Positions 5,413-63,200 of a stretch of DNA of 64,000 bases are shown here, one piece after another. The stretch spans positions 62,001 to 126,000 of the forward strand of contig NZ_BBYF01000013.1 of the NCBI RefSeq assembly GCF_001894745.1. Reading direction: 5' to 3'. The translations under genes and the position numbers were made by a program. This DNA comes from Paenibacillus sp. NAIST15-1 (lineage in GTDB: Bacteria; Bacillota; Bacilli; Paenibacillales; Paenibacillaceae). The first letter of the stretch is position 1. Every line of letters starts with the position of its first letter. A model generated the notes under the pieces. It had not been told where the DNA came from, did not search any database, and saw only the letters and a list, made by a program, of their open reading frames with translations.

Positions 5413-5438
5413 ACGATTGCTTCCTCCCTTCCTTATGT

Positions 5439-5469: not shown

Positions 5470-5592
5470 GACGATTAGCTAGTGTTTGTTTTTTCGCAGG
5501 ATTTCTAATAATGATTCCGTTTCCGTTCTTCCGAAGCGAAGGTGAAAGGGAAGCAAAAACGTCAAATTCCCTCAGATGTAAGCAAATATCTT

Positions 5593-5619
5593 TTGTCATA
5601 ACACAATTGAATGTATAAT
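5593..5619 (+). promoter_or_regulatory. Possible promoter of the RpoA-CTD-like gene
   Basis: TATAAT at 5614-5619 is a perfect -10. The best -35, TTGTCA (5593-5598), has only 15 bp spacing. The coding start is 90 nt further on. The -10 is convincing; the -35 is weak. Confidence 0.35.
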
Positions 5620-5709
5620 CGTGGAAGGTGTTGTGGCTGCAGCATCTCGGCCTAAGATCTGCTTATCATGTACAATTAACAGCTAGCAATAGGAGAGGGG
5701 ACAACCACT

Positions 5710-6003: not shown

Positions 6004-6063
6004 ACAATCGAACAGCAGAATGATCCTGATTATACTTCAAGTTGAAAGTTGAGGAGAATGTGG

Positions 6064-6837: not shown

Positions 6838-7010
6838 AGGAGAAACTTCATCTGCACAGCAGTCCAGCAGCTCAGATGCTTCAGTGTAGCAATATCGAAG
6901 TGCCGCTCCCATCGCATTCACGTAGACAAGAGAAAGTGGGTTCAATCCTGCATTCGAAGATATAACGGGAACTATGTATGGTGTGGAGAGTGTGCACATG
7001 GTTAGTAACG

Positions 7011-7051
7011 AAGGAGCAACAGCCTCCACTTCTGGAAGACGGTTGCTCCTC
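7011..7051. terminator. Hairpin between convergent genes
   Basis: GGAGCAAC (7013-7020) pairs with GTTGCTCC (7042-7049), with further pairing possible inside. It lies between the + strand membrane protein gene and the - strand S41 peptidase gene. T-tracts on both sides are poor (CCTTCC / TTCGTT), so function as a bidirectional terminator is plausible but not certain. Confidence 0.45.
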
Positions 7052-7090
7052 CTTCCAATGTTATCGAATTAGACTGCACTACATCCGGAT

Positions 7091-32500: not shown

Positions 32501-35500
32501 ATGGCTGATTCCCTGGGCGAGCTTCAAATGAAGCCATATCCGCTGGAATACACAATATCGAAGTTCGATGTGAGCTTGGATGTGAAGGCAGATGAGGCGG
32601 GGCTGGATTGCAGCTTCGAGTATGCGACTTCCTTGTTCAAATCAGAGACGATCCACCGCATGGCAGAGCATTTCAACCAATTGTTGAAGAACATCGTCAA
32701 TCACCCGGATGCGCAACTGGGCGAACTAGGGATGCTTACCATGCACGAGAGCGACGAGATCTTGCAGGTGTTCAATCCAACTCGCTCATTGAAAGCTCCT
32801 GACGGAACGATTCATCGATTGTTCGAAGAACAGGCAGAACGGACACCGGAGCAACCTGCAGTCGTATTCGGGAATAAGCGCATGACTTACCGCGAGTTGA
32901 ACGAACGGGCGAATAAGCTTGCGAGAACATTGCGGGCAGAAGGTGTGGAGCCAGATGACTTAATTGGCGTTATGGCCGATCGCTCGATTGATATGGTCGT
33001 GGCAGTTATGGCCGTCTTGAAGTCAGGCGGAGCTTATGTCCCGATTGATCCGGAATATCCGGAGGATCGCATTCGCTACATGCTGGAAGATGCGAAGGCA
33101 AGTATACTTCTGACGCAGTGTCATTTACAAGATAAAGTGACCTTCGAGGGAACGTGGGTGCTGCTGGAAGACGAAGCTTCCTATCATGAGGACGATACGA
33201 ACCTGGAGCCGAACTGCGAGCCAGACCATCTCTGTTATGTCATCTATACATCGGGTACAACCGGCAATCCGAAGGGAGTTATGATCGAGCATCGTCAGCT
33301 TGCTGCGATGGCAGAGGCTTGGAAGGCCGAGTATGAATTGCATGAGCTGGGCATTCGCTGGCTGCAATGGGCGAGCTTCTCGTTCGACGTATTCTCAGGT
33401 GATCTCGCTCGCACACTGCTGCATGGAGGAGAGCTTGTACTCTGCCCGAGCGATACAAGAGCGAACCCAGGTGCATTAGCAGAGCTTCTTCGCAGCAGCG
33501 GCATTCAGATGTTCGAATCGACACCTGCTCTCGTCATTCCGCTTATGGAGCATGTGTATGAGCATGGCCTGGACATCGACAGCCTGAGATTATTAATTAT
33601 TGGCTCCGATCTGTGTCCTGCAGATGAATTCCGCAAGCTGCGCGATCGCTTCAGTTCACACATGCGCATTATTAACAGCTATGGCGTCACGGAAGCTTGC
33701 GTTGATTCGAGCTACTATGAGCCGATTTCATCAGATTCAGTACGCTCTGTGCCAATCGGTAAGCCGCTTCCTTACGTATCGATGTACATTCTCGGTGAGA
33801 ACTTGTCGCTTCAGCCTGTTGGTCTGGCTGGAGAGCTGTATATCGCAGGCGCCGGAGTCGGACGCGGATACTGGAATAGGCCAGAAATGACAGCAGACAA
33901 ATTCGTGCGCGATCCGTTCGCTGACGGTCAACGCATGTATCGTACAGGGGATTTGGCGAAATGGCTGCCGGACGGCAACATTGAATTAATCGGGCGCACC
34001 GATCATCAGGTGAAAATTCGCGGCTACCGCATCGAAATCGGAGAGGTCGAATCGAAGCTGCAGCAAACGCCGCATATCCGCGAAGCAGCCGTCGTCGCGC
34101 AGGAAGATGGGGGAGGGCGGAAGGTACTGTGTGCTTATTACACATCCGATCGTGAGCTGACGGCAGGTGAATGGAGATCTGCATTGGCGAAGGAATTGCC
34201 GGCCTACATGATACCGTCGCACTTTATGAGGCTTGAGCGGATGCCGCTTACGCCTAACGGCAAGCTGGATCGCAAGGGACTTCCAGCACCGGAAGGCGCG
34301 GCGTATACGGGGACGGAATATGAAGCTCCACGCACGGATGCAGAGATTGCGCTGGCTGCCGCATGGCAGAGTGTCTTGCATGTGGAGCGGGTTGGAACGA
34401 ATGATCATTTCTTCGAACTGGGTGGAGATTCGATCAAATCGATTCAAGTGTCATCGCGTCTGCATCAGGCTGGATACAAGTTGGAAATACGCGACCTGTT
34501 CAAATACCCGACGATAGCGCAATTGAGTCTGCAGCTTCAGCCGATCGGCAGGATAGCCGATCAAGGCGAGGTGTCTGGCGAGGCTGAGCTGACGCCAATC
34601 CAACGCTGGTATTTCGGACTGGATCTAGATGACATGCATCATTATAACCAGTCGTTCATGCTGTATCGGCAGGACGGATTTAATGAGGAGGCTCTGCGCA
34701 AGACTTTACGAACCATCGTGGAGCATCATGATGCGCTGCGAATGGTATTCCGTAAATCAGACGCTGGGGTTACGGCTTGGAATCGGGCAATTGAAGAGGG
34801 GGAGCTGTTCGACTTCCTTGCCTTCGATATCGCAAACAGTGGAAATGCTGAACAGGTTATCGAAGCGAAAGCGAACGACATACAGGCTAGCATCGATTTG
34901 CAAGGCGGGCCGCTTGTGAAGGCTGGATTGTTCCGCTGCGAGCAAGGCCATCATCTGCTCATCGTGATCCACCATGCTGTCATGGATGGAGTATCATGGC
35001 GCATCCTGCTGGAGGATATCGCGACAGGCTATGAGCAAGCGTGCAAGGGTGACGACATCCGCTTGCCTTCGAAGACCGATTCTTATGCTACGTGGTCACG
35101 GAGTTTGGTCGAATATGCTGCACACACGGATTTGGGTCATGAGCGCAGCTATTGGAGACACGTCTTGAACGCTGGAGCGAATCCGCTGCCGAAGGACTTT
35201 GACACAGAATCAAGTCTGCAGCAGGACAGTAATTCCGTCACCGTAGCTTGGAATCAACAGGATACGGAGCATTTACTGAAGCGGGTGCACCGAGCCTATA
35301 ACACCGATATGAATGAGATCTTGCTGGCCGCTCTCGCGATAGCCATACAGAAATGGAGTGGGCACAATCAAATTCTCGTCAACCTAGAGGGTCATGGACG
35401 TGAGCCAATCGTAGGCGAATTAGATATTTCACGGACAGTCGGCTGGTTCACAAGCGAATATCCGGTTCTGCTGCAAGCGGAGCGAGATCGAGGTTTGGCG

Positions 35501-38500
35501 TACCACATCAAGAGAGCGAAGGAAGAATTGCGGCAGATTCCGAACAAGGGAATCGGTTACGGCATATGCCGCTACTTGTCTGAGCCGCAAGATAACTTGG
35601 AATGGGGAGCTGCCCCAGAGATTAGCTTCAACTACTTGGGACAATTCGATCAAGACTCGATGGGAAGCGGTATGATGTTGTCTCCATATTCGAAAGGTTC
35701 CGATGGAAGCGCCTTGCATACACGTCAATATGTCCTCGACATCAATGGCGCCATAACTGACGGCATATTGACCTTGGATATGAGCTACAGCGAGAAAGAG
35801 TACCGCAAGGAGACGATGGAACTGCTGGCAGGCCATTTCCACGAGAGTCTGCTTGAGATCATCGACCACTGTGTCTCACGTGAGAAGACAGAATTGACAC
35901 CGAGTGATCTCCTGCTGCAAGGACTGAGTATCGAACAGCTGGAGCAGATTGTTGTAGAGACGAAAGAGCTTGGCATCATCGAAAATATGTACATGCTGAC
36001 CCCGATGCAGAAGGGGATGTGGTTCCATAACGCTCTCGATGGTCAAGAAGGCGCATCGGGTGCTTATTTCGAACAAACCCGATTTACGCTGCGAGGTGAG
36101 CTTGATCCTGCCCTGTTTGCCCAGAGCCTGCACGAGCTGGCTGCCCGGCATTCCGTGCTGCGGACGAACTTCTGCAGCTTGGACGGGGAACCGGTACAGG
36201 TGGTGTTCAGGGAAGGACGAATTACATTCACGTACGAGGATCTGAGCCAATTGCCAGCTGATGAGCAAGCAGTTGTGATGGAACGTGTTGTCGCGAGCGA
36301 CAAGCTGCAAGGGTTCGATCTGGAACGCGATCCGCTTGTTCGCGTCACATTGATGCGTACGGAGGCATCTAGCTGCCATGTACTGTGGAGTTCTCATCAT
36401 ATTCTGATGGATGGCTGGTGCTTGCCGCAGTTGACGGACGAGTTGTTCCGCATATACTCAGCTGTCACGAATCATGCAGCCGGAACTACTGAAGCTACTG
36501 GAACGGTCGGAATTCCCGGATCTGCCGAATCCATGCGGAACAAAGAGGCCAACCTGCCTGACTATAGCCGATATATCGAATGGCTGGCAGAGCAGGACAT
36601 GAGTGCGGCGGCAGAATATTGGAACGGGTACTTGGCGGGCTACGAGCAGCAGACTCGATTGCCAAATGGGAAGATCACAGGCAAGGATAAGCCATATGTG
36701 CTGGAACAAGCGTCCCGCAAGCTCGGAATTGATCTTACTTCCCGTATGATTCGGATTGCCAAGCAGCATCAAGTTACGTTAAATACGCTGCTGCAAGCCG
36801 CTTGGGGGATCGTGCTTCAGAAGTATAACGGGACGCAAGATGTGGTGTTCGGCGGAGTCGTATCGGGTCGACCTGCTGATGTTCCGGGTGTCGAATCGAT
36901 GATTGGACTATTCATTAACACGATTCCGGTTCGTGTAAGCTGCGAAGCCGGCGCAAGCTTCTCAGACGTGATGGAGCAGCTGCAAAATGCGGCACTCGAA
37001 TCTGGGCGATATGATTATTATCCGCTCTATGAGATTCAATCGAGAACGTCACAGAAGTCGGAACTAATCAGCCACATCATGGTGTTTGAGAACTATCCAT
37101 TGGACGAACGAATGGAGCAAACCGGAGACGGTAACGACGGAGCTCTCGCTTTAACCGATGTTCAAGCAGCTGAACAGACCAATTATGATTTCAATCTAAT
37201 GGTCGTGCCGGGTGATGAACTTATCATTCGCTTTGATTTCAACTCGGAAGTGTATGATCGCGGTCATATGGAACGGCTGCATCATCATCTGATGCATGTA
37301 CTGGAGCAAGTAACAGGCAATCCTGCAATCTCCATTGCTGAAGTGCAGCTCGCTACCGAAGCGGAGAAGGCAGAAGTCCAATCTGCATTCAATGACACAG
37401 CTGTCGACTACCCTCGCGAACAGACGATTCATCGGATGTTCGAAGAGCAGGTGCAGTGGACGCCGGATGCTGCAGCAGTGCTGTATGGGGATGACGTCAT
37501 AACCTACCGAGAGCTGAACGAACGTGCGAACCGGCTGGCAAGGACGCTGCGTGCGGCAGGGGTTGAACCCGATCAGATTGTCGGTATTATGGCAGAGCGT
37601 TCTCTGGAGCTAATGGTTGGCATTATGGGGATTCTGAAGGCAGGAGGCGCCTATGTGCCTATCGCACCGGATTATCCAGAGGATCGCATTCGATATATGC
37701 TGGACGATTCCAAGGCTCAGGTGCTGCTTGTTCAAGGAAGCGCGGGAGAAGCGGTTGACTTCGCGGGCCGCATCATCAATCTGGATGATGCAGAAGCATA
37801 CGATGAGGACGGTTCGAATCCTGAGCCAGTCAACAAGCCGACCGATATCGCCTACATCATCTATACGTCGGGAACGACCGGACGTCCAAAAGGGGTTATG
37901 GTCGAGCATACTTCGGTCATCAACCGCTTGCTGTGGATGCAGAAGCGCTATCCGATAGGATCGGAAGATACGATTATGCAGAAGACGGCGATCACGTTTG
38001 ACGTATCGGTCTGGGAGCTGTTCTGGTGGGCATTTGTCGGCTCGAAGGTGCTTATGCTTTCAGTCGGTGGGGAGAAGAACCCACATGCGATTGTGGATGC
38101 GATTGAGCGTCACCGAATAACGACGATGCACTTCGTTCCATCCATGCTGCACGCGTTCCTTGAGCATGTGGAGCAAATGACAGATGCAGAGCGTGAGCGC
38201 GGTCTCGCACCGCTGCGGCAGGTGTTCACGAGTGGCGAGGCACTGCTTGCCTCACAGGTCGAGCGGTTCCACCGTTATATTGCACCTGCAAGCGGAGCGC
38301 AGCTTATTAATCTATACGGGCCGACTGAGGCGACGGTGGACGTAACGTACTTCGACTGCGAGCCAGGCCAGACTTATGTAAGTGTGCCGATTGGCAAGCC
38401 AATTGACAATACGAGCATTTATATCGTGAATGAGCATAATCAAGTGCAGCCGATCGGCGTTGCTGGTGAACTGTGCATCGCGGGAGTAGGGTTGGCGCGC

Positions 38501-40552
38501 GGTTACTGGAACCGTCCAGATCTGACAGCAGAGAAATTCGTTACAATTCCTTCCGTCGGCGAACGGATGTATCGAACCGGAGACTTGGCACGGTGGCTGC
38601 CTGACGGCAATATCGAATACTTGGGCCGAATCGACCATCAAGTGAAAATCCGCGGATATCGGATTGAATTGGGCGAGCTGGAAACTGCTCTGCTGAATGT
38701 CCAAGAAATTCGGGAGACGGTTGTAGTTGCGCGAGAAGAGGAAGACGGACAGAAATCACTCTGCGCCTATTATGTCGCAGATGGCGATCCAACGGTAGGT
38801 AACCTTAGAGCGGCGCTTGCTGCTGAACTGCCAAGCTACATGATTCCATCGTACTTCATTCAGCTGGAGCAGATGCCGCTGGCGCCGAACGGCAAGCTTG
38901 ATCGTAAAGCGCTCCCTGCTCCGAAGAACGTGATTCGGACGGGAACTGATCACGCCGCACCACGAACAGCATTGGAAGTGAAGCTCGTTCGCATATGGCA
39001 GGAAGTACTCGGTCTCGATCAAATCGGAGTGAAGGACGACTTCTTCGAATTGGGAGGGCACTCCTTGCGCGCAACTGCGTTGGCAAGCAAGGTAAGCAAG
39101 GAAATGCACGTTGCTCTTCCGCTGCGGGATATTTTCCACTATTCGACGCTGGAAGCGATGGCGCAGGCGATCGGCGAATTGGAGAAGCAGGAGCACCGAG
39201 CGATTCCTATCGCGTCAATGGCCGAGCATTATCCATTGGCTTCAGCCCAGAAGCGGTTATACATTCTGCACCAGGCTGAAGGAGCGCAGCAGAGCTACAA
39301 CATGCCGGGGGCGATGTCCGTCAGTGGACACATCGATCGAAATCGACTGGAAGCGGCGCTTCTGCAATTGATTACACGCCATGACACACTGCGCACAAGC
39401 TTCGAAATGGTTGATGGTGAGCCTGTACAGCGCGTACACCAGCACGTTGATTTCGCGTTAGAGTATTCGACTGCGAGAGAGAAGGATATCGATCAGGTTG
39501 CCGAGCAGTTTGTCCGCGATTTTGATCTGGAGCAGCCTCCACTACTGAGAGTCGGACTTGTCCAACTTGAGCAAGAAGAACAACATCTATTGCTGTTCGA
39601 TATGCATCACATCATTTCGGACGGGATCTCTATGGACATATTGGTTGATGAGCTTGCTCGCTTGTACAACGGGGAGGAACTTCCTCCACTTGAAATCCAG
39701 TACAAAGATTATGTGCTGTGGCAGCAAGCAGAAGCAAGCAGCGAGCAGATGAAGGAACATGAAGAATACTGGCTGCGGACATTGGGCAATGAACTTCCGT
39801 TACTGGAGCTGCCGACCGAATTTGCAAGAGGCGAACAGCGCAGCTATGAAGGAGATAAGCTGCACTTTGCGATTGATGGGCAGTTGAACGAGAAGCTGCA
39901 GCGCTTGGCATCCCAATCGGGAGCAACCCTATATATGGTGCTGCTGGCGGCTTATACGACCTTGCTTCATAAATATTCAGGACAAAATGACCTGGTTGTG
40001 GGTACCCCAATTGCGGGCAGAACCCATGTAGATGTAGAACCGCTAATTGGGATGTTCGTCAATTCGCTTGCGATTCGCAATTACCCAAATAATGACAAGA
40101 CGTTCCGCAGTTATTTAGAGGAAGTGAAGGAATCGACGCTGAGCGCCTTCGAGCATCAGGATTATCCGTTCGATAAGCTGGTGGAGCAGTTAGAGGATGC
40201 TTGGGTTCCAGGCCGTAATCCGGTATTCGACACAATGTTCGTCCTGCAGAACGCAAAAGCGCGCACGATCAACCTGGGAGAATTGGCCTTCGAGCCTCTA
40301 ATTCCATCACACACGGTTGCGAAATTCGATTTAACCTTGGAAATGGCTATCGAAGACGGCATGCTGAGCGGGCAGTTTGAATATTGCACAAAGCTGTTTT
40401 CCGCCAACATGATTGCGAATTTCGCAGAAGACTTCTTGGAAATTCTATCTCAAGCTTGCGAGCAGCCTGACATCCGCTTGGAGGATATTCAACTGAGCGG
40501 CAGTGCTTATCAAGAGGAAGAATTGGAAGAAGAAATTGACTTTGCATTCTAA
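20591..40552 (+). CDS. pbtA: NRPS PbtA: starter module and modules 2-5, ending in the C domain of module 6
   Basis: A 6,653-aa synthetase. Order: Cs-A-T-E / C-A-T / C-A-T / C-A-T-E / C-A-T / C. Carrier serines (4'-phosphopantetheine sites): S1005, S2529, S3570, S4614, S6158. Condensation/epimerization HH motifs begin near residues 137 (NHIVTDG), 1193 (E), 1665, 2710, 3752, 4794 (E), 5269 and 6339. My pocket readings: DVGELVSVDK, DAFMLGGTFK, DFWNIGMVHK, DVGELISVDK, DVWHFSLVDK, read as Orn/Dab-like, Val, Thr, Orn/Dab-like, Ser. Carriers before E domains have GGDSIKS; the others have GGHSLRA. C domains after E are D-C-L type ([11 protein letters not shown]). GTG 20591 follows GGGGAGAG. There is no thioesterase; the protein ends EEEIDFAF. 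Agreement with paenibacterin residues 1-5, including D-configuration at 1 and 4, supports the name. Confidence 0.93.
20606..25160 (+). other. Module 1: starter C - A(Orn-like) - T - E
   Basis: The starter C domain (about residues 5-440) has NHIVTDG, keeping the catalytic second His but with Asn in place of the first. It would acylate residue 1 with a fatty acid. The A pocket reads DVGELVSVDK (cationic, Orn/Dab class); T is GGDSI with S1005. The E domain motif is [10 protein letters not shown], so the usual Gly after Asp is Ala (A1199). Other E motifs ([34 protein letters not shown]) are intact. Confidence 0.85.
25165..28300 (+). other. Module 2: DCL - A(Val-like) - T
   Basis: The D-C-L condensation domain has HHIVMDGWC at residue 1665, as expected behind an E domain. 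The A pocket reads DAFMLGGTFK, close to the Val code DAFWLGGTFK with Met at position 278. Carrier [10 protein letters not shown]2529. No epimerase, so L-Val is expected. Confidence 0.8.
28301..31430 (+). other. Module 3: LCL - A(Thr) - T
   Basis: The L-C-L condensation domain has MHHIISDG (H2710). The A pocket reads DFWNIGMVHK, the canonical Thr code. Carrier S3570. In paenibacterin the Thr hydroxyl closes the lactone ring, so this residue is central to the product. Confidence 0.88.
31431..35960 (+). other. Module 4: LCL - A(Orn-like) - T - E
   Basis: The C domain has HHIISDG from H3752. The A pocket DVGELISVDK is nearly the same as module 1. Carrier GGDSIKSIQ (S4614). The E domain has a complete [10 protein letters not shown] (H4794), in contrast to module 1. 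Predicted residue: a D-configured Orn-type cation. Confidence 0.85.
35961..39180 (+). other. Module 5: DCL - A(Ser) - T
   Basis: D-C-L domain with HHILMDGWC (H5269). It carries a Thr/Gly-rich insertion around residues 5293-5318 ([19 protein letters not shown] region) not found in the sister domains. The A pocket DVWHFSLVDK is the canonical Ser code. The carrier is GGHSLRAT (S6158), so no epimerization. The A core is almost the same as that of module 8. Confidence 0.87.
39190..40549 (+). other. C-terminal condensation domain of PbtA (belongs to module 6)
   Basis: A complete L-C-L domain with [12 protein letters not shown] at residue 6214 and HHIISDG at 6339 closes the protein, with no A domain behind it. 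The last residues EEEIDFAF resemble the PbtB terminus DTIEFAF. It must act in trans with the A-T of module 6 on PbtB. Confidence 0.85.
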
Positions 40553-40663
40553 ATCGCTGCATTTGACACTGTTGTTCGGTTGTTAACGCGTCATTCATGA
40601 CACTAGGATTGGATTTCGTTCATTCGGGCTGCGTGCAATGGATTTACAGGCACGTACCCGGAT

Positions 40664-40678
40664 GGACGGATGCCGTCC
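40664..40678 (+). other. Small hairpin before pbtB
   Basis: GGACGG and CCGTCC flank a 3-nt loop, 41 nt upstream of ATG 40719. There is no T-run, so it is not a terminator; an mRNA-stability or spacing role is possible. Otherwise the 166-bp gap shows no promoter, and pbtA-pbtB are probably co-transcribed. Confidence 0.4.
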
Positions 40679-40718
40679 TCTAGGGGCTTTACTTGATTTG
40701 AGAGGGGAGATGATCAGA

Positions 40719-43200
40719 ATGGCTTTTGATAAAGAAATCGAATTTTGGAAAGCGAAACTCGATACTGAAGATACGCCTACGACTTTGCCCTACACGAGCA
40801 CTCCAAGCAGTGAAGCGGCACGACATTATTCCGTTTCTGTTACGATGCCTGCTGAAATTTCGGAACGAATTATTCGCATGTCTAAGGGCTCGCATCAAGC
40901 AGCCTTCATGATTTTACTAGGTGGCATCCAATGCTTGCTGCACAAATACACGAGTGAGAATCGCATCGTCATCGGCATGCCTATCGTGCGAAAAGCAGGG
41001 GAGAAGAGACTTCCCATCAATCAAGTCGTCCTATTGAAGGAGAATGTCAATGAAGAGCTCACGTTCAAATCCTTGCTTACTTCACTGAAACAATCCTTTA
41101 CAGAAGCGATTCGACATCAGCATATCCCCTTCCGGCTCATAACTGAGCAGATGAATGTACAAGAAAAGAATGGCTTGCCTGTCATCAATACGATGGCAGC
41201 TCTGAAGAATATACATACCGTTAACTTTATTCCAACGGTTGTTGCAGATGTATTGTTCCAATTTGAGTTCGAAGCTGAGAACCTCCTTTTGAGCGTTGTA
41301 TATAACGAACGTGTCTATGACTCGGTATTTATATCGCAAATCATTGAGCATTTGCAGCGCGTGCTGAGCATCGTATTGCTTGAGCCAAATACGAATTTAG
41401 GGGATCTTCGCTTACTTTCGGATGAGGAAACATCGCTGCTCCTGCACGGATTTAATACGACGGCTGCAGAGTATCCACGTGACCGAACAATTCATGAACT
41501 CTTCACGGAACAAGCACGTCGCACGCCGAATGCTGTTGCGGCAGTTTATGGGCAGCAACAGTTAACATATGCCGAGCTAAATGGAAGGGCGAACAGGCTG
41601 GCGCGTACGTTACAGAACGCTGGCGTTCGATCCGATCAGCTCGTTGGCATCATGGCCGAACGGTCGCTCGAAATGATTGTAGGCTTGCTAGCCATCATGA
41701 AGGCTGGCGGGGCCTATGTTCCGATCGACCCTGAATATCCGCAGGAGCGCATTCGTTATATGCTCGAGGATTCGGGAGCGCAGACGCTAATGCTTCAAGA
41801 CCATCTTCGCGAGCGTGTCACCTATGAAGGCACGATCGTGGATATGAATAGCGAACATAATTATCATGACGACGAGACGGAACTTTCCTCTGTGTCCGAT
41901 TCAAGCAACTTGGCATATGTCATCTATACTTCGGGCACGACAGGCAATCCGAAAGGGGTCATGATTGAACATAGAAGCGCAGTCAATGCGCTGTTGTGGA
42001 GAATTCGGACATACGGGCATTCTTCCTTCGACCGGGTTCTGCAATTGTTTTCATTTTCCTTTGACGGCTTCGTCATGAGCGCGTTCTGCTCATTATTGTC
42101 CGGCGCAGGTTTATTTTTACTTAAGGAAGAAGACGCGAAGGATCCGCTCGCCTTGCATGGCGCTATCAGCCAATCGGGAATCACGCACTTCATTTGCGTA
42201 CCAAATCTATACGGAGCGCTGCTCAATGTGATGCAGGCCGAATCTGTGTCTACGCTGCGTACAGTGACATTGGCTGGCGAGAGTGTCAGCAGTGCATTAG
42301 TAGCTAGAAGCAAGGAGCAGCTTCCTGATGTAAAGCTGTTTAATGAATATGGACCGACAGAGAACAGCGTCGTGGCGACCTGCGCAATCGGCCTCGAGAA
42401 GGATCAACCCATCACCATTGGTACACCGATCTCTAATGCGAGTGTACTGATTTTGAATACTTCTGGAGAGTTGCAGCCGTTACATGTGCCGGGCGAATTA
42501 TGCATAGCCGGTGAGGGACTGGCGAGAGGTTACTTGAACCGTCCGGAATTAACGGAAGAGAAATTTGCGGCTCATCCATTTGTGCCAGGTGAACGCATTT
42601 ACCATACTGGTGATTCCGCCAGATGGCTGCCGAACGGCACAATTGAATATTTGGGACGGATTGATCACCAAGTCAAAATCCGTGGATTCCGTATCGAGCT
42701 GGGCGAAATCGAGTCGAGCTTGAAGAAGGTAGCGGGTGTGCGAGAGGTCATCGTGGATGCTAGGCCGGACGGTAATGGCCAACATATGCTGTGTGCGTAC
42801 ATGGTAGCTGACGCTGAGCTTACTGTGACGGAATTAAGGGAGGCGTTGTCTTCCAATCTGCCGGATTACATGATTCCTTCTCACTTTGTGCAAATGGAAC
42901 AGCTGCCACTTACGCCAAGCGGCAAGCTGGATCGCAAGTCATTGCCCGATCCCCAAGCTAACATGGCTATTGGCACGGAGTATATTGCGCCTCGTACTCC
43001 ACTTGAAGAACGACTTGCGCAAATCTGGCAGGAGTCGCTTGGTGTGGAAAGGGTCGGCATCAAGGATAATTTCTTCGCCCTTGGCGGACACTCGCTGCGG
43101 GCAGCTACATTGGCAAGCAAGCTTCACAAGGAGTTGAACGTCAATGTGCCGCTTCGGGATTTGTTCCGCAATCCGACGATCGAAGAATTGGCTTTGCTTA
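40719..43200 (+). other. Module 6 (remainder): C-terminal C lobe - A(unassigned) - T
   Basis: Residues 1-235 start at the FWKAKL position of a C domain and run through LLHKYTSENRIVIGMPI to the end. The N-terminal lobe with HHxxxDG is absent. The A pocket reads DGMITAEVVK, which I cannot match to a standard code; paenibacterin has Val here. The carrier is [11 protein letters not shown] (S792) with Ala where the other carriers have Glu. Confidence 0.75.
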
Positions 43201-58200: not shown

Positions 58201-59996
58201 AGTTGTGCGCGTATTTCACAGCAGAGCGCTCGCTCACGGCGGGCGAGCTGCGGGCAGCATTGTCGCAGGAGCTGCCAGGCTACATGATTCCGTCCTACTT
58301 CGTACAGTTGGAGCGGCTGCCGCTGACGCCGAATGGGAAGATCGATCGGAGAGCGCTGCCGAAGCCAGAAGGCGGCATTGAGACTGGAACGGAGTATGTC
58401 GCGCCGCGTACAGATACGGAAGCAAGACTTGCAAGCATTTGGCAGGATGTATTGGGGTTAGCAAGCGTAGGCGTGAAGGACAACTTCTTCGAGCTGGGCG
58501 GTCACTCGCTGCGGGCAACGACGCTGGTGAGCAGGCTGTACAAGGAAATGAACGTCAACTTCCCGTTAAGAGGTGTGTTCCGTCATCCGACTATCGAGGA
58601 GATGTCTCAAGCAATCTCGCAAATGGAGACCTCATGGTATACAGCCATTCCGATTGCCGAGGAGCAAGAATACTATCCGTTATCTTCGGCTCAGTTGCGA
58701 CTCTATATCATGAGCCAGCTGGAAGGAAGCGAGCTCAGCTACAATATGCCTGGCATGTTGGTGCTTGAAGGACAGCTGAATCGAGATCAATTCCAGACAG
58801 CATTTTTGAAGCTCATCGCTCGTCACGAGACTTTACGTACTGGCTTTGAGATGGTAGACGGCGAGCCGATGCAGCGCATCCATCGCAATACGGAATTCGC
58901 TATTGACTACAGACAGGTATCCGAGGACGAAGTTCCGGAGATGATTGGACAATTTATCCGACCGTTCGACCTGGAGCATCCGCCATTATTGCGGGTCGGG
59001 TTGTTCGAAGTTGGGCAGGATCGGCATATTCTCGTCTTTGATATGCACCATATCATTTCTGACGGTGTCTCAATGAGCAATTTAGTTGATGAATTTACTC
59101 GATTGTATGCGAATGAAGAACGGCCGCCGCTGCGTATCCAGTACAAGGATTATGCGGTATGGCAGCAGACGAGTGAGAATCTTGAGAGGCTGAAGCACCA
59201 AGAAGACTATTGGATGAGTATGCTGCAAGGCGATCTTCCGAACACAGAGTTGCCGTTGGATTATGATAGAGCGGCGGTTCGCAGCTTCGAAGGGGAGCAG
59301 ATCGAATTCGAAATTAACCCGGTAGTGACGGGTCAGCTGAACCAACTTGCTTCTAATCATGAGTGCACACTGTACATGGTCTTAATGTCCGCCTATCAGA
59401 TTCTGTTATCCAAATATTGCGGTCAGGATGACATTATTGTCGGTACTCCTGTTGCGGGTCGCAATCATGCCGATTTGGAGCCGTTGATCGGTATGTTCGT
59501 CAATACCCTCGCGATTCGTAACCGTCCGCAGGGCGATAAAACGTTCCAATCGTTCTTGGCAGAGGTGAAAGAGACAACATTAGGTGCATTCGAACATCAG
59601 GAATATCCATTCGAGGAACTGATTGACCTCTTGAAGCTGCAGTGGGAGACAAGCCGCAATCCATTGTTCGATACGGTGTTCGTCCTCCAGAATACGGAGG
59701 AGCGTGAAGCCGGAATCGGTGGATTGACGATATCACCTTACGTGACAGATGACTCGGTCAGCGCGAAGTTCGATCTGACGCTGTCTGTATCGGAAGAAGA
59801 CGATGGGATGAAGGGAAGCTTCCTGTATGCTTCCAAGCTGTTCAAAGCAGCTGGCATACACAGAATGATGAGAGATTACTTGTCAATCCTGTCCCAAGTA
59901 TGCGAGAACCCTCGCATCCGCATTCAAGATATTTCGATAAGTGGACAGCAGACACAGGAAAAGAGCAAGATCGATACGATCGAGTTCGCGTTCTAA
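40719..59996 (+). CDS. pbtB: NRPS PbtB: modules 6-10, ending in the C domain of module 11
   Basis: A 6,425-aa synthetase from ATG 40719 (GAGGGGAG about 10 nt upstream; the in-frame ATG 40638 has no ribosome site). Order: C-lobe-A-T / C-A-T-E / C-A-T-E / C-A-T / C-A-T / C. Carrier serines: S792, S1834, S3368, S4890, S5930. HH motifs begin at H972, 2021 (E), 2500, 3549 (E), 4023, 5070 and 6110. Pocket readings: DGMITAEVVK (unassigned), DVGDVVSIDK (cationic), DVWHFSLVDK (Ser), DGFFLGVVFK (Ile), DVQFIAHVVK (Pro). Paenibacterin residues 6-10 are Val, D-Lys, D-Ser, Ile, Pro, which fits except for the odd first code. The N-terminal ~235 residues are only the second half of a C domain. There is no thioesterase; the protein ends DTIEFAF. 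Confidence 0.93.
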   Translation: MAFDKEIEFWKAKLDTEDTPTTLPYTSTPSSEAARHYSVSVTMPAEISERIIRMSKGSHQAAFMILLGGIQCLLHKYTSENRIVIGMPIVRKAGEKRLPINQVVLLKENVNEELTFKSLLTSLKQSFTEAIRHQHIPFRLITEQMNVQEKNGLPVINTMAALKNIHTVNFIPTVVADVLFQFEFEAENLLLSVVYNERVYDSVFISQIIEHLQRVLSIVLLEPNTNLGDLRLLSDEETSLLLHGFNTTAAEYPRDRTIHELFTEQARRTPNAVAAVYGQQQLTYAELNGRANRLARTLQNAGVRSDQLVGIMAERSLEMIVGLLAIMKAGGAYVPIDPEYPQERIRYMLEDSGAQTLMLQDHLRERVTYEGTIVDMNSEHNYHDDETELSSVSDSSNLAYVIYTSGTTGNPKGVMIEHRSAVNALLWRIRTYGHSSFDRVLQLFSFSFDGFVMSAFCSLLSGAGLFLLKEEDAKDPLALHGAISQSGITHFICVPNLYGALLNVMQAESVSTLRTVTLAGESVSSALVARSKEQLPDVKLFNEYGPTENSVVATCAIGLEKDQPITIGTPISNASVLILNTSGELQPLHVPGELCIAGEGLARGYLNRPELTEEKFAAHPFVPGERIYHTGDSARWLPNGTIEYLGRIDHQVKIRGFRIELGEIESSLKKVAGVREVIVDARPDGNGQHMLCAYMVADAELTVTELREALSSNLPDYMIPSHFVQMEQLPLTPSGKLDRKSLPDPQANMAIGTEYIAPRTPLEERLAQIWQESLGVERVGIKDNFFALGGHSLRAATLASKLHKELNVNVPLRDLFRNPTIEELALLMEGMEQQEFSAIERVKESEYYSVSSAQKRLYVLQQLEGAEQSYNMPGAMLLEGLLDRERLEASFRKLIARHETLRTGFELMDGEPVQKVYQDVSFAIEYMQTSEAEAAQKAREFIRAFDLMTPPLMRVGLIEMAPDRHVLLYDMHHIISDGASMGVVVEEFARLYGGEELPPLRIQYKDFAAWQQSEAQQKRSKQQEAYWLQAFSGELPVLELPTDYARPAIQSYEGETYEFTVDSDISTALQRLAADSGTTLYMVLLAAYTVLLHKYTGQEDIVVGTTNAGRMHDDLQPLIGMFVNTLAIRNYPAGESTFRAYLEQVKEQALAAFEHQEYPFEELVEKLHVTRDMSRNPLFDTMFSLQNMENKDFELPGLQLKPYGFEHQISKFDLSLDVAEGADGLACSLEYASSLYRQDTIVRMADHYRQLLHSIAQSPEAQISVLGMLTTGEQEQIRFKFNHDPSEMEQKHTVHQLFEEQAALTPERTAVVHENEQLSYRELNERANRLARTLRQHGVQPEQLVGILADRSLDMIVGIMAILKAGGAYVPIDPKYPEERIRYMLEDSKANVLVTQSHLQSLSSFDGTWVLLDEESSYAEDAANLVSITEPQHLAYVIYTSGTTGQPKGAMIEHRQLTVMAKAWECEYRLREESIRWMQWASFSFDVFSGDLIRALLHGGELVLCPEHARANPAAIYELIRKHRLHMFDCTPSIVIPLMEYVYENKLDISSLKLVAVGSDYCPPDEFQKMLDRFGSQFRIINSYGVTETCIDASYYEPTTPTVPRALPIGKPLPGVTMYIMDGQRSLLPVGVIGELYIGGPCVGRGYWNRPEMTSEKFVADPFLQDHRMYRTGDLARWMPDGNIEYLGRIDHQVKIRGYRIENGEVESKLLKVETVRESVVVARQDPNGTKALCAYFVADRNLTVSELRSALADELPAYMIPSYFVQLDRLPLTPNGKVDRKALPAPEAGAHTGIEYVAPRTEEELALANVWQTVLGIERVGVLDHFFELGGDSIKSIQVASRLQQAGYKLEIRDLFKYPTIAQLGSHLQRVSKVADQGEVSGDVPLTPILGWFFEQQFADAHHYNQSIMLYRREGFNEAAIRNVLQAVTEHHDALRIVFRRNDQGDYTAWNRAIEEGELFHLEVLNLTGSASGDHEQNVRQIIEAKATEIQRGFDLHDGPLARAGLFRTDEGDHLLLVMHHGVVDGVSWRILLEDIATGYEQALKGEPVRLPAKTDSFRTWANQLASYARSEAMIEEQVFWEQAEANATSILPLPKDFEAKTSLQQDSESVVVEWSREETDMLLKHVHRAYNTDMNDILLAALGMAIQQWCGHEKALVTLEGHGRENIMPELDISRTVGWFTSEYPFLLESDPNKSLSYRIKRMKENLRRIPNKGIGYGIHRYLSDSGTENVSRSEASAQPEISFNYLGQFDQDLQNNEMEVSSYSGGAEISVRQARNTTLDFNGMISAGVLALEVSYSSKQYRRDTIDRLAGLLKGSLQEIVAHCASKDKPELTPSDVLVNGLGIEDLERIAEQTRDLGDIENIYALTPMQKGMWFHNAMDGQAGAYFEQTRFSIQGELDVQLFASSLDVIATRHAVLRTNFFSGWNGELLQIVYRNKNLEFSYEDLTELPEHEKQDRVEAMAQADKQRGFNLERDALMRVSVLRTSVNCSHVIWSSHHILMDGWCLPQLTQEWLETYSDSVNGRSSSRSGASPYSLYIEWLYRQDYTAASQYWSDYLSDYDQQTVLPQKKSSGRSDVYIADNLVFELGEALTAKMHRVAKQHQLTLNTLMQAAWGIILQKYNNTGDAVFGGVVSGRPAEIPGIESMIGLFINTIPIRVVCEADDRFADVMKQLQEKALESGRYDYYPLYDIQALSAHKQDLINHILVFENYPMEEQMEQAGDERGQLNITDVRVAEQTSYDFNLVVMPGEDMMIRLEYNAAMYVRADMERVRQHLIHVLEQVTADPAIAVKDVRLATDVEKAELLTAFNDTEVEYPREQMIHRMFEEQVQRTPDAAAVLYGADTMTYQEMNDRANQLARTLRAAGVVPDQIVGIMAERSLELMVGIMGILKAGGAYVPIAPDYPEERIRYMLDDSEAQVLIVQGSVGEAIDFAGRVINLDDADSYDQDNSNLEVVNKPTDIAYIIYTSGTTGRPKGVMVEHTSVINRLLWMQKRYPIDANDTIMQKTAITFDVSVWELFWWAFVGSKVLMLPVGGEKNPAAIVEAIEQYDITTMHFVPSMLHAFLEHIEQLPEAERDRLSPLQQVFTSGEALLASQVERFHQYVVPASGARLINLYGPTEATVDVTYFDCELGQTYVSVPIGKPIDNTRIYIVNEHNQVQPIGIAGELCIAGVGLARGYWNRPELTEEKFVLVPSVGERMYRTGDLARWLPDGNIEYLGRIDHQVKIRGYRIELGELETALLNIDAVRETVVVAREDESGQKSLCAYYVADGEATVSDLRAALAAELPSYMIPSYFVRLEQMPLAPNGKLDRKALPAPERSLQVESEYVAPRTEAEQMLATVWQAVLGIERVGITDHFFELGGDSIKSIQVAARMQQAGFKLEIRDLFKYPTVTQLVPYMQPINRTADQGEVVGEVPMTPILHWFEHQQFANPHHFNQSVMLYRKDGFVADAVRKALHKLVEHHDALRIVIQRTEQGEFSLWNRSLVEGELFSMEEIDLTDQSDFAAAIEAEANHIQGSIDLQAGPLVKAGLFHGSDGDHLLLVIHHAVIDGVSWRILLEDLALGYEQALNQRQVRLPMKTDSFRTWAEQLVEYANSSAMDKESAYWLGVAQTKVAALPKDSECTVSLQRDSESVVLEWNREDTERLLKHVHRAYNTEMDDILLTALGRALMKWRGIERILVTLEGHGRESIIQGMDITRTVGWFTTEYPFELVTEANDSLGSQIKKVKEDLRRIPNKGIGYGLFRYLSNSGKQAWNDAPTTQIRYNYLGQFDADLSNNELSVSPYASGSEISDEQERKYPLDINGVIAEGQLTLGLSYSVKEYRKETMEKLGDFLTESLKEIIAHCESQERTQLTPSDVLFKGLSLEWLDRISSQMQHIGEIENVYALTPMQKGMWFHSAMDSLTGAYHEQTMFTLEGTLDVELFSSSLNELAKRHAVLRTNFISGPQGEPVQVVFRNKPIGFSFQDVRALNEEEQQSFIKEAVSSDQLLGFDLAQGALIRVSAIRTGELSCRVLWSSHHILMDGWCLPQLMQELFDTYAALLQKKSPDRTAVPAYSQYIEWLGQQDEEAAGTYWSAYLADYDQVTEIPQESSAGIDSEPYKAEKWSRELDAGLSASISRTARQHQVTLNTLLQAAWGVILQKYNGTNDVVFGSVVSGRPAEVPGIETMIGLFINTIPIRVKCEGSTSFAELMGLLQEQALESGKYDYYPLYEIQSRSALKQNAIRQIMVFENYPMDEQLEQAGGDEHGMPSLTDVAVEEQTNYDFNLIVVPGEQISIRFDYNANRFVQADMERLMGHLNNILEQIVDNPRIAVEDLELATEAEKSEVVQSFNDTFTNYPRDMMLHRLFEEQAERHTDAVAISFRDVQMTYRDLNDRANRLARTLRAVGVGTDKLVGLMSERSPDMIIGILAILKAGGGYVPIDPEYPEERIRYMLEDSGARIMLAQQHLTGKIPVMDASPLDAIINLDTETSYDSNGSNLEANTDASSENLACVIYTSGTTGKPKGNLTTHRNIVRVVRETEYIDITNHDNVLQMSSYAFDGSTFDIYGALLNGAKLVLVPHETLLEVRQLAELIVQEKISVMFITTAYFNVLVDVQASCLSNIRAILFGGERVSVSHVRKALNHVAPGTLKHVYGPTESTVFATCHDVYEVPENAVTVPIGRPISNTSIYIVDANNKLQPVGVAGELCVAGDGLARGYLNRPDLTAEKFVDSPYVQGERMYRTGDLAKWLPDGSIEYVGRIDQQVKIRGYRIELGEIEAQLLNVEDVQEAVVVARDTDTSEKQLCAYYVAMRPLEANHLREVLGQAMPSYMLPAHFIQLEQLPLTPNGKVDRKALPAPEEGRSGETFVAPRTPLEAQLVQIWQDVLGISSVSVTDHFFELGGHSLKATLLVNRLHQELNIELPLKDVFQYPTLEVMAKRLSNAEGSRHVSIPVAAPSQHYPVSSAQKRLYILHQLEGAELSYNMPNMMLLEGAVDLGRLEEAFKRLIERHDTLRTGFEIVNGEPVQRIYPEVDFAIEHVLANEEGASKLMQQFVRSFQLEKPPLLRIGVIELAEERSILMFDMHHIISDGTSMGILINEFVRLYSGEELTPLRIQYKDYAVWQQSDTQQEAMKLQEGYWLKVLGGELPVLEMPTDSIRPTTQSFRGDLLQFDLDPLRSAGLRRIAAENGATMYMVLLALYKTMLHKYSAQEDIIVGTPIAGRNHGDLQPLLGMFVNTLAIRSYPAASKTFLSYLDEIKETTLAAFENQNYPFEALVEQVQVMRDMSRNPVFDTMFILQNADQGEMKIDGVRLQSVPNEHTVSKFDLTFQAEEDEAEIVCSIEYATDLFKRGTIERMARHFEQLVDSVLDNPQASLSNLSMVTNEEKALLQDKFNDTDMAHPSDKTVHELFAEQVERTPDAVAVVSGCEQLSYGELNRKANQLAWKLREYGVTAEQPVGIIVERTLNTVVAVMAVLKASGTFVPIDPEYPETRIRYMLADSGAKLVLAQSELPGIIPDDVRLIDVRDKSLYQGDGADVPNGSKPSNLLYIIYTSGTTGNPKGVMLEHGNMVNLLHYQQKGTNIPMPSRILQYASGSFDVCYQEMFSALLFGGSLYMVDNEMRKDPVRLFQEIEKHEIDVMFIPVAFLKFIFAEPEWAEAFPRCVRHIITAGEQLVVTPQVQACLKRLDICLHNHYGPSETHVVTTYTMTPEVIEVGLPPIGKPIANTSIYIVNDSFDLQPIGVKGELYVSGAGVGRGYWGRTDLTEEKFLDNPFAPGERLYKTGDVARWLPDGSIEYVGRSDHQVKIRGFRIELGEVESQLLHVPAVQEATVVALEDHAGQKQLCAYFTAERSLTAGELRAALSQELPGYMIPSYFVQLERLPLTPNGKIDRRALPKPEGGIETGTEYVAPRTDTEARLASIWQDVLGLASVGVKDNFFELGGHSLRATTLVSRLYKEMNVNFPLRGVFRHPTIEEMSQAISQMETSWYTAIPIAEEQEYYPLSSAQLRLYIMSQLEGSELSYNMPGMLVLEGQLNRDQFQTAFLKLIARHETLRTGFEMVDGEPMQRIHRNTEFAIDYRQVSEDEVPEMIGQFIRPFDLEHPPLLRVGLFEVGQDRHILVFDMHHIISDGVSMSNLVDEFTRLYANEERPPLRIQYKDYAVWQQTSENLERLKHQEDYWMSMLQGDLPNTELPLDYDRAAVRSFEGEQIEFEINPVVTGQLNQLASNHECTLYMVLMSAYQILLSKYCGQDDIIVGTPVAGRNHADLEPLIGMFVNTLAIRNRPQGDKTFQSFLAEVKETTLGAFEHQEYPFEELIDLLKLQWETSRNPLFDTVFVLQNTEEREAGIGGLTISPYVTDDSVSAKFDLTLSVSEEDDGMKGSFLYASKLFKAAGIHRMMRDYLSILSQVCENPRIRIQDISISGQQTQEKSKIDTIEFAF
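43210..47780 (+). other. Module 7: LCL - A(Lys/Orn-like) - T - E
   Basis: C domain with MHHIISDG (H972). The A pocket DVGDVVSIDK belongs to the same cationic family as modules 1 and 4, but with Asp in place of Glu at position 278. Carrier [11 protein letters not shown] (S1834). E domain HHGVVDGVSW (H2021). This fits D-Lys in paenibacterin. Confidence 0.82.
47785..52340 (+). other. Module 8: DCL - A(Ser) - T - E
   Basis: D-C-L domain with HHILMDGWC (H2500). The A pocket DVWHFSLVDK = Ser; the A core is near-identical to module 5. Carrier GGDSIKSIQ (S3368). E domain HHAVIDGVSW (H3549), so D-Ser is expected. Confidence 0.86.
52345..55500 (+). other. Module 9: DCL - A(Ile) - T
   Basis: D-C-L domain with HHILMDGWC (H4023). 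The A pocket DGFFLGVVFK differs from the known Ile code DGFFLGVVYK only at position 331. Carrier GGHSLKATL (S4890). Confidence 0.83.
55510..58620 (+). other. Module 10: LCL - A(Pro) - T
   Basis: C domain with MHHIISDG (H5070). The A pocket DVQFIAHVVK is a Pro code (compare DVQLIAHVVK of GrsB). It is marked by FDVCYQEMF, IITAGEQ and HNHYGPSETH. Carrier S5930. Confidence 0.86.
58630..59993 (+). other. C-terminal condensation domain of PbtB (belongs to module 11)
   Basis: A complete L-C-L domain (YPLSSAQLRLYI at residue 5986, HHIISDG at 6110) closes PbtB and ends IDTIEFAF. It must pair with the C lobe-A-T at the start of PbtC, just as at the PbtA/PbtB joint. Confidence 0.85.
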
Positions 59997-60257: not shown

Positions 60258-63200
60258 ATGAAGTCGGTATATGAGAAAGAAGAAGCCTATTGGAATGGAA
60301 TGTTTGATTCGGATGACAGCATGAGCATATTGCCATATTGCAGTACACACGGAAGAGAAGCGAATGCGGATACGAATGCCGCCAAAGTGTCTATGATCCG
60401 TGCACTCCCAACAGATCTGTCAGACAGAATGAACACTCTTGCGAATGGTTCGGATGTTGCCCTGTACATGATTGGATTGGCAGGGGCCACTTGCTTGCTC
60501 CACCATTATACGAACCGAGAAAATGTGCTTGTAGGCATGCCGACAATAGATGAACCGGATGATGACTCATCACCTCGTGACGTACTCATTATGAAGACGA
60601 ATTTGACACGCGAAAGCAGCTTCCGTTCCGTATTGGGGTCAATCAAGACAGCCGTCGGAGGAGCATTGGAGCATCGTCATCTTCCGTTTCGGAAAATGGT
60701 ACACAACCTAAACCTGGAGATGGACACGAACGGATTTCCGGTGATGAATACGGTAGTGTCTTATTCAGCCATACATACCGCTTCTATCGACCTTAGCGTC
60801 AGCTCCGACGTCATATTCCGATTCGATGCGAAGGACAATGGCCTTCATTTGGAGGTGCTTTATGATGAAAGCCGCTATGATGCCTCCTATATTGCCACTC
60901 TATTCGAACATTTTTTCCGACTGCTTCATTTTGTGTTATTCCAGCCAGACCAGCCTATCGGCAATGCCGTGTTATTGTCCGAAGATGAGAAGCATCGCCT
61001 GCTTCATGAATTTAATGATGTGTGGACGGATTTCCCTCGTCAAGCAACACTACATCAGTTCATTGAGGAACATGCGGAGCGACAGCCAGAGGCAATCGCG
61101 GTTTCTTATGAAGATACCAAGCTGACGTATCATGAGCTGAATACCCGGGCGAATCGCCTTGCCAGAACACTTAGATCTGAAGGTGTGCAGCCAGAAGCAC
61201 TAGTTGGGCTCATGGCTGAAAGATCGATCGACATGATTGTTGGGATGCTTGCCGTTTTGAAGGCGGGAGGCGGCTACGTCGCGATTGATCCGGAGTATCC
61301 GGAGGAGCGCGTTCGCTACATGCTGGAAGATTCGGGTGCTCGTGTCATTCTGGTTCAGCAGCATTTGCAGAAGCGTGTGCCAAATACGGAATCAGCAGCT
61401 AGACTCCTTATACTTGACGATGAGCAGTCTTATCATGAGGATGCTTCGAAGTTGGAATCGAAGAGTACAGCTGTAGATTTGGCTTGCGTCATCTACACTT
61501 CGGGGACAACGGGCAATCCCAAAGGTAACCTGACGACACACCGCAATATCGTACGCATCGTGAAGAATACCAACTATATCGAAATTACGGAGCAGGATAA
61601 GGTACTGCAATTATCGAGTTATTCTTTCGATGGCTCCGCGTTCGATATTTTCGGGGCATTAACGAATGGGGCCCAACTGGTTCTTGTTCCTCATCATACA
61701 TTGCTTGATGCACGCAAGCTGGCGGAGCTGATCGAAACGGATCAAATATCGGTCATGCTGATTACTACCGCTTATTTCAATGTTCTTGTTGACGTAAACG
61801 TATCCTGCCTGCGTCATATCCGCGCGATATTGTTCGGAGGCGAGCGCTCCTCTGTCGCGCATGTCCGTAAAGCACTTGAACAGACAGGTCCGGGAAGACT
61901 GAAGCATGCCTACGGCCCTTCTGAAAGCACGGTATATGCGACATGGCATGATGTGACAGAGATTCCGGAGCGAGCCGTAAGTGTACCGATCGGTCGTCCA
62001 ATCAGTAATACAGCCATTTATATCGTCAATGAACGAAATGATTTACAGCCAATAGGGGTACCCGGTGAGCTGTGTGTAGCGGGAGAAGGGTTAGTTCGCG
62101 GATATTTGAACCGTCCAGAACTGACTGCACAGAAATTCGTTGATAATCCGTTCGTACCGGGAGAGCGCATGTATCGTACTGGGGACTTGGCGAGATGGCT
62201 GCCGGACGGAACGATTGAATATGTTGGCCGAATGGATGATCAGGTGAAAATCAGAGGTCATCGCATCGAGATTGGGGAAGTAGAGGCGCAGCTGCTCAAA
62301 GTGGCGCCGATTCAGAAGGCGACGATTGTCGTCCGAGGCCGCGAGGACGGAGAGAAGCAGCTGTGCGCATATTATGTAGCAGATCGTCTGCTTCCTGCAG
62401 GCGAGATTAGAACAATGCTTGCCAAAGAACTGCCTAGTTATATGATTCCGGCATACTTCATTCAGCTTGAACAGATGCCGTTGACGACTAACGGCAAGGT
62501 AGATCGCAAAGCCCTGCCAGAACCGGAAGAGCACGTACAAGCAGAGACGGAATATGTGGCGCCTAGAAGTGAACAGGAAATTCGGCTTGCGAGAGTCTGG
62601 CAGGAAGTGCTCGGTCTAAGCCGAGTCGGTGCAAAGGATCATTTCTTCGAGCTGGGCGGCCATTCATTACGAGCGACGACACTGGTCAGCAAGCTGCACA
62701 AAGAAGAGAATATCAGCCTGTCTCTGCGCGATGTGTTCCGCAATCCTACTTTGGAAGCGATGGCCGCGCTCATGGAAGATGCTCAAGGACGCAAATTCGC
62801 ATCCATCCCGACAGTTGAGGAGAAGGATGTATATCCGGTATCTTCGGTGCAGAAGAGATTGTTCATTTTGCATCAGCTGGAAGGAGCTGAGCAGAGCTAT
62901 AACATGCCAGGGGCATTACTGCTTGAGGGCGATGTTGACCGGAACCGATTGGAGTATGCATTCCGTCAGCTGATCACACGTCACGAAACGCTTCGCACCG
63001 GCTTTGAAATGGTGAATGGAGAACCTGTGCAGCGCATTTATCCGACTGTTGATTTTGTAGTGGAAGAGATGTCAGTCCTGGAAAGGTCGGAAGTCGAGGA
63101 GAAAATCCGGCAATTCATTCGCGCTTTCGATCTGTCCACAGCGCCACTGTTCAGGGCGGGGCTGATTGAGCTTGCTCCTCAGCGTCACATTCTCCTGTTC

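Follow-up and report, generated by a model that had tools for sequence, protein, structure and literature searches.

A half condensation domain and a conserved C-terminal tail as a probable docking pair at split modules of nonribosomal peptide synthetases in Bacilli

In the nonribosomal peptide synthetases (NRPSs) of Bacillus, COM docking of the TycA/TycB type follows a helix-hand arrangement. It pairs a short C-terminal donor tail with an N-terminal acceptor at subunit joints and, following Fage et al. 2021, COM domains also occur within modules (both as given in the consulted sections of a review, PMC11546977). In rhabdopeptide synthetases a short C-terminal peptide is bound by the N-terminal domain of the next subunit (PMC6195595, consulted in part), whilst the thermoactinoamide synthetase protein ThdA begins with a truncated condensation (C) domain, C*, before its adenylation (A) domain, which its authors call probably inactive and for which they suggest a possible effect on A-domain selectivity (PMC7253712, consulted in part). 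For modules divided between C and A, the literature searched says little about how the subunits recognize one another. Here we analysed a 64,000-nucleotide stretch of Paenibacillus sp. NAIST15-1 (the window; contig NZ_BBYF01000013.1, positions 62,001 to 126,000), which encodes the NRPS proteins PbtA and PbtB and the start of PbtC, and in which module 6 carries a complete C domain at the end of PbtA and a further half C domain, the C-terminal lobe alone (half-C), at the start of PbtB. We put at roughly three in four the probability that the half-C and the short tail of the preceding protein form an inter-subunit docking pair, tail plus socket.

The PbtA open reading frame (ORF; 20591-40552) ended in a C domain that matched positions 2-452 of the Pfam profile PF00668 with 430 bits and carried HHIISDG at residue 6339. 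The longest PbtB ORF begins at 40638, and the start used here is the ATG at 40719, which has a good ribosome-binding site (GAGAGGGGAG) and places FW at residues 9-10. From this start, the N-terminal ~240 residues matched Condensation positions 191-456 alone (84 bits, E 1.2e-23), and a motif search found no HHxxxDG between the PbtB N-terminus and its next C domain. Compared with the complete PF00668 form, the C-terminal lobe fold was present, and the N-lobe with HHxxxDG and the latch and floor-loop crossover elements were absent; Pfam at E 0.001 recognized only Condensation and AMP-binding in the N-termini of PbtB and PbtC. Because no N-lobe could be read in the three forward frames of the 166-nt gap between PbtA and PbtB, the half-C is not a frameshifted full domain, and with the same layout found in other families we rejected a frameshift or truncated-gene artefact. 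An initial annotation of the window had described just such a complete domain facing a C-terminal lobe without HHxxxDG and had assigned the split to module 6, all of which held up. It had missed the joint between PbtB and PbtC, which repeats the layout (Condensation 2-453 at the PbtB end, 189-456 at the PbtC start; Pfam), and the shared ending [DE]FAF of the two upstream proteins (EEEIDFAF in PbtA, DTIEFAF in PbtB). Domain models gave five pairs of A and thiolation (T) domains in PbtA, five in PbtB and three in the whole of PbtC, the first of which lies inside the window; on these counts (5 + 5 + 3) module 6 is the right assignment and module 11 is split likewise. The 13 A-T pairs fit a 13-residue lipopeptide such as paenibacterin, and the Pbt name was provisionally accepted on layout.

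Half-Cs were gathered from the class Bacilli by similarity to PbtB and PbtC, with identical halves counted once. At E 1e-20, 17 of the 19 genomes from the genus matched the PbtB half-C; the PbtC half-C was matched in 61 of 295 family genomes, whilst a 46-row half-C alignment matched at least 91 of 398 class genomes at E 1e-35 among the matches listed, a count that includes ordinary C-lobes. Reading the DNA around fetched matches yielded 181 distinct half-C N-termini, 146 of which had an adjacent upstream NRPS ORF; HHxxxDG occurred in none of these 146 half-Cs. A complete C domain ended 137 of the 146 upstream ORFs, spanning 6 families and 21 genera (7 families when any upstream NRPS ORF is counted). 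The half-domain, for which the initial annotation had proposed a survey of other Paenibacillus NRPS proteins, is recurrent and occurs outside that genus as well. A literal HHxxxDG lay in the last 460 residues of 131 of the 137 C-ended proteins; the other six were those at loci L103, L230, L227, L237, L062 and L215. Among the remaining nine upstream ORFs, seven ended in T (half-C proteins that follow such an NRPS protein include L234, L235, L236, L226 and L229) and in two only a C-lobe was recognized, with the tails SVEFVF and SIDFVF.

Several of these loci resemble known antibiotic synthetases, under names (iturin-like, polymyxin-like) that we take from gene size, domain order and host. In polymyxin assembly, pmxE acts before pmxA despite its gene lying downstream. 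PmxA-like proteins made up 15 of the 35 half-Cs that lacked an adjacent upstream NRPS ORF, with their partner PmxE encoded elsewhere in the cluster, and PmxE-like proteins ended in ..IDIIF in five of six fetched regions (in the sixth, L176, no NRPS end was seen). Scanning named genomes for one Bacillus half-C gave 12 loci, from hosts including B. velezensis, B. siamensis, B. inaquosorum, B. tequilensis, B. halotolerans and B. atrophaeus. In 11 of the 12 the upstream protein ended C-T-C-A-T-C with the tail DSIQLNF or close to it (Pfam check on one, L251), a layout that we take to be the A subunit of iturin, mycosubtilin and bacillomycin D synthetases; the twelfth locus, in Paenibacillus sp. ACRRX, had the Pbt-type tail ETIQFAF.

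The C-ended partners shared a short acidic and hydrophobic tail with the consensus [VLI][DE]x[IV][DE]FxF-COOH. FxF closed 101 of the 137 tails, [FL]x[FLI] 126 and hydrophobic-x-hydrophobic 128, and the remaining nine were of the IEVDFF type, DFS or FGFSFE, which by their letters seem to be this motif displaced by a single position. Across 89 distinct last-8 sequences, position -1 held F in 78 and position -3 held F in 70, position -4 an acidic residue (D or E) in 62 and position -5 I in 50. As a control, NRPS ORFs in which T was the last domain recognized gave 16 distinct tails, 0 of them FxF. Alongside these were 19 further ORFs ending in a domain of the C or epimerization (E) fold, 14 of which (PmxE-like, iturin-like or L147) carried a tail like those of the half-C partners; of the five lacking such a tail, three were read as E, one continues into more protein and one is a fragment. 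The individual joints also kept their own signature in the relatives seen, with [ET]IDF[AV]F at PbtA-type and [DE][TS]I[EQ]F[AVS]F at PbtB-type ends.

Half-Cs were also set apart from ordinary C-lobes by profile, position and descent. A half-C profile trained on 45 fetched halves plus PbtB stood at least 65.7 bits from the full C-lobe model for each of the 146 half-Cs with an upstream ORF, whilst 0 of 229 full C-lobes scored better with the half model. Half-type matches were N-terminal in 213 of 215 cases; the other two were a weak match inside a full C domain (L037) and the second of tandem C-lobes in L216, an arrangement also seen in L261 and L262. In a tree of 134 rows (86 half-Cs, 47 full C-lobes and 1 starter lobe, after removal of short or edge matches and near-copies), all 86 half-Cs fell on one side of a branch with a Shimodaira-Hasegawa-like approximate likelihood ratio (SH-aLRT) of 99, outside which lay the full C-lobes and the starter lobe. 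This was a quick tree in which support is weak for many of the inner branches (63 of 130 open) and two long rows are joined. An earlier FastTree of 62 half and 89 full rows gave the same split, with values of 0.63 and 1.0 either side of the drawn root. Independent origins of half-Cs were not supported, with 86 of 86 rows on one branch, though sampling by similarity to PbtB and PbtC favours that outcome.

Fold and constraint of the half-Cs were compared with those of full and neighbouring domains. An alignment of the 62 half and 89 full representatives showed the half-Cs to be ~14 columns shorter at one segment and 4 shorter before the GMFVNT motif, segments that we take to be the latch and the floor loop, respectively, and in the tethered AlphaFold2 model of the PbtB/PbtC joint (below) the full-lobe strands 348-350 and 353-357 had no counterpart in the PbtC half. 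Because of these shortenings and absent strands, the half-C seems fitted to existence without an N-lobe. Against one related genome, the ratio of non-synonymous to synonymous differences (pN/pS) was 0.18 for the PbtB half-C and 0.24 for the PbtC half-C, next to 0.15-0.17 for neighbouring A parts and for the C domain that closes PbtA. Searching the PDB by sequence returned no related half-C structure, the best matches being ordinary C domains at E 2.4e-10 or weaker.

Whether tail and half-C belong together was examined by distance correlation on 76 of 79 representative joints, drawn from 133 of 137 pairs. Tail distance correlated with half-C distance at 0.389 (0.251-0.506), compared with 0.169 for the A region beside the half-C; the half-C value was the higher in 1.00 of 200 bootstraps, and A added 0.041 given the half-C. 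At the level of sequence, this speaks for a putative link between tail and half-C over mere neighbourhood. Covariation between tail and half-C over 137 pairs (effective 85), aimed at the binding face, gave top pairs that may reflect shared ancestry, and we infer no contact from them. As PbtB and PbtC share one frame, they could be modelled as a single AlphaFold2 chain of C domain, tail, intergenic DNA (stops read as Gly) and half-C, with 30 relatives. The chain reached a mean predicted local distance difference test (pLDDT) of 80 and a predicted template modelling score of 0.69, with a helix at 430-436 in the tail, tail blocks at 67 and 73, and 66 of the ~87 linker residues under 50. A chain of PmxA tail and PmxB half gave 65 and 57 over residues 11-30 and under 50 over 1-10 and 27-76, with a helix at 13-19. 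The tail thus appears somewhat better defined than most of its surroundings in both models, which would suit docking. When the models were compared with PCP-C structures, the aligned range started in tail residues for some of them, an observation to which we attach no interpretation.

A number of observations weigh against a docking pair of this kind. The tail tracked the C-lobe of its own protein nearly as well as the half-C (0.329 versus 0.389), the half-C being the higher in 0.76 of bootstraps, an edge that is not significant; the own N-lobe gave 0.327, with a partial value of 0.265 for N-lobe versus half, and part of the correlation comes from joints inherited as units. Confidence in the tail was only moderate in both tethered models (67/73 and 65/57), and a linker stretch in the PbtB/PbtC chain reached 56-63, so the contrast is small. 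No upstream NRPS ORF adjoined 35 of the 181 half-Cs, 7 of 146 came after a T-ending protein, and some tails fit the consensus loosely (FELDDLKI and LGLIEISI, both among the 128, and GAQGEFGL). At L258 (reverse strand, 171-7946), the next ORF after an NRPS protein with the tail SDQLNFHF opens with a full C domain, an exception to adjacency; half-C ORFs lie elsewhere in the region. Collecting half-Cs by similarity to PbtB and PbtC itself favours a single branch.

In the arrangement we favour, the catalytic C domain of the split module would stay entire on the upstream subunit, which ends in the short acidic and hydrophobic tail, and the downstream subunit would open with a C-lobe that lost its catalytic lobe and latch; by binding the tail, the half-C would then bring the A-T pair of that module to the upstream C domain and thereby secure the correct order of chain transfer. 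Binding, its face and the specificity of pairing are inferred, as is any platform role of the half-C. The initial annotation had suggested that the spare lobe is a docking element recognizing the upstream C domain. Its first part stands well with the single branch, the N-terminal position in 213 of 215 matches and the one type of tail on the 137 C-ended partners; its second part finds no particular support, the conserved feature of the partner being the last 5-8 residues of the upstream protein, and on these sequences the tail is the more likely docking partner than the C domain. Bacillomycin D synthetase, with its iturin-type layout, may already provide a case, as we take its modules 2 and 6 to be C/A splits of the half-C type. 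Removal of the donor tail from modules 2, 3 and 6 reportedly led to truncated linear products (Lv et al. 2022, as summarized in the consulted part of PMC11546977), which, if modules 2 and 6 are such splits, would amount to a partial in vivo test of docking; two mutants with such deletions still made bacillomycin D according to the same source, a further point against the docking idea.

Other explanations would give the half-C a different role or none. It may be mainly a platform or gatekeeper of the A domain, retained for stability or substrate selectivity once the module had been divided between C and A, with docking left to something else. C-lobes do contact A domains, the selectivity of the McyB A domain was shifted by a co-expressed C-terminal subdomain alone (consulted part of PMC11546977), a gatekeeping role is also cited in PMC7253712 (likewise consulted in part), and half-lobes occur at starter modules without an upstream NRPS partner, both in ThdA and in the host (contig C1, 611109-617864). 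Such a role leaves unexplained why the partner carries a conserved tail and why half-Cs form a single branch apart from ordinary C-lobes; the host starter lobe fell outside that branch, although its placement is unsure on a long branch, and in L216, L261 and L262 the place of a platform is already occupied by a second C-lobe before A. We regard a mainly platform-based explanation as unlikely. A platform role is judged to be a companion of docking rather than its rival, and because the half-C occupies the usual site of contact between C-lobe and A domain, it is probably also the platform of that A domain.

That the half-C combines with the upstream N-lobe into a hybrid C domain is suggested by its homology to the C-lobe and its place beside a full C domain, yet the elements that would clasp an N-lobe (the missing latch and floor-loop columns and the two strands) are gone and the upstream C domain is already complete, which makes lobe exchange very improbable. 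We give equally little credence to the idea that the half-C is a leftover without function, from gene fission or recombination where N-lobe and C-lobe meet. The break does coincide with the engineered C-subdomain swap site (XUC, in the consulted part of PMC11546977), where natural recombination is plausible, but the one branch among the sampled rows, a constraint near that of neighbouring domains, occurrence in 7 families and a matched partner tail all speak against it.

The features of both joints are given in Table 1.

Table 1. Features at the two split-module joints of the window, in window positions
Feature	Position	Strand	Basis
Complete terminal C domain of PbtA (C of module 6); HHIISDG at ~39605-39625	39200..40510	+	Pfam and sub-domain models
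C-terminal tail of PbtA, proposed donor docking motif	40514..40549	+	Sequence; family pattern
PbtA-PbtB intergenic gap; ribosome-binding site at ~40700-40709, N-lobe remnant none seen	40553..40718	+	Frame reading
N-terminal half-C (C-lobe only) of PbtB, proposed docking acceptor	40719..41444	+	Pfam, tree, sub-domain models
A-T of module 6, immediately following the half-C	41490..43193	+	Domain models
Complete terminal C domain of PbtB (C of module 11)	58644..59957	+	Pfam, domain models
C-terminal tail of PbtB, EKSKIDTIEFAF, proposed donor docking motif	59958..59993	+	Sequence; family pattern
N-terminal half-C of PbtC (gene runs off the window end)	60258..61004	+	Pfam, domain models

Within the host genome (G000), the survey covered the NRPS stretches around matches, with two C-like places on contigs C5 and C10 set aside. 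The four proteins read as C-ending each had an F-x-F tail (IDFAF, IEFAF, IDFKF and DTFSF) followed by a half-C. Two of these joints lay outside the window, one with the tail PAEIDFKF in a mixed polyketide synthase and NRPS cluster on C10, the other with LLTDTFSF on C3. Three other proteins, whose last domain has the C/E fold, were read as E, with the ends ..LDSLFA, ..EIGDKD and ..LENKF, none of them FxF. A C-lobe remnant opens the starter-type NRPS on C1 (L038), for which no NRPS partner was seen upstream. On C14, one C domain was divided between two overlapping ORFs (L033; 94079-101353 and 101341-111045), by frameshift or true split, and as a single split domain it was rejected as an instance of the docking pattern. 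A 9621-residue NRPS ORF on C13 (142456-171318; L022, L023) lies ~16 kb past the window and runs off the contig end.

Variant layouts were seen in other genomes. Four loci (L216 in G397, L258, L261 in G363 and L262 in G427) had a half-C, then a second C-lobe, then A, without an N-lobe; here the docking lobe and the A-platform lobe appear to be separated. In G397 the nearest upstream NRPS protein (L259, ~2.3 kb away) ended in a C domain with the tail GDFEFNF. Two genomes carried two successive half-C proteins (L133/L135 in G039 and L132/L136 in G061), a small half-C-A-T protein without C standing between the C-tail protein and the second half-C protein, so that one C domain possibly faces two acceptors.

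If a tail and an independently folding lobe do pair in this way, they would explain subunit pairing for several known antibiotics, and the assembly lines concerned include clinically and agriculturally relevant ones. Subunit order could then be read by software from FxF at the C-terminus of one protein and a half-C opening another, and engineers would gain a portable connector at a site where swaps are already made. In a wider form, a single-origin family of decatalysed C-lobes would order many Bacilli assembly lines (paenibacterin-, polymyxin- and iturin-like), pair with a C-terminal FxF code and split modules at the engineering C-subdomain boundary, making the subunits ready-made exchange cassettes; for this extended picture we see the chances as evenly balanced. 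The half-C/tail pair was not found described in the literature searched, with subscription papers, Fage et al. 2021 and Lv et al. 2022 included, mostly outside it. COM-type docking at within-module joints is already known, and the half-C/tail variant is what is new here, a novelty limited by a possible prior naming of the half-C as an acceptor.

Overall, matched C- and N-terminal elements at subunit joints, the general mark of NRPS docking, were found here, with a C domain ending 137 of 146 adjacent upstream ORFs and a hydrophobic-x-hydrophobic end on 128 of the 137 tails. As in COM pairs of the TycA/TycB type, a short donor tail would meet an N-terminal acceptor; a short helix, predicted with moderate pLDDT before the FxF end in both tethered models, may resemble the donor helix. 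The half-C/tail pair differs in that TPSD occurred in the last 40 residues of 0 of 137 partners and L(T/S)P(M/L)QEG in 0 of 146 half-Cs, in that the acceptor is a whole C-lobe of ~240 residues before A rather than the N-terminal edge of a complete C domain, and in that the donor is a C rather than an E domain. It would work like a COM pair yet fails the tested COM motifs, and because of this failure it should not be filed as COM. The rhabdopeptide system likewise joins a short C-terminal peptide to the next subunit, but with a small N-terminal docking domain (NDD) before C and a C-terminal docking domain (CDD) after T, where the acceptor here is a C-lobe; the small docking domain before C of the TubC/NDD type was not detected in PbtB or PbtC by Pfam at E 0.001. 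ThdA shares the N-terminal truncated C domain before A, in a starter module without an upstream partner. The same layout of C-tail followed by half-C-A is found in loci of the iturin, mycosubtilin and bacillomycin D type and of the polymyxin type, which differ in their peptides and in the letters of their tails (DSIQLNF and ..IDIIF, compared with DTIEFAF).

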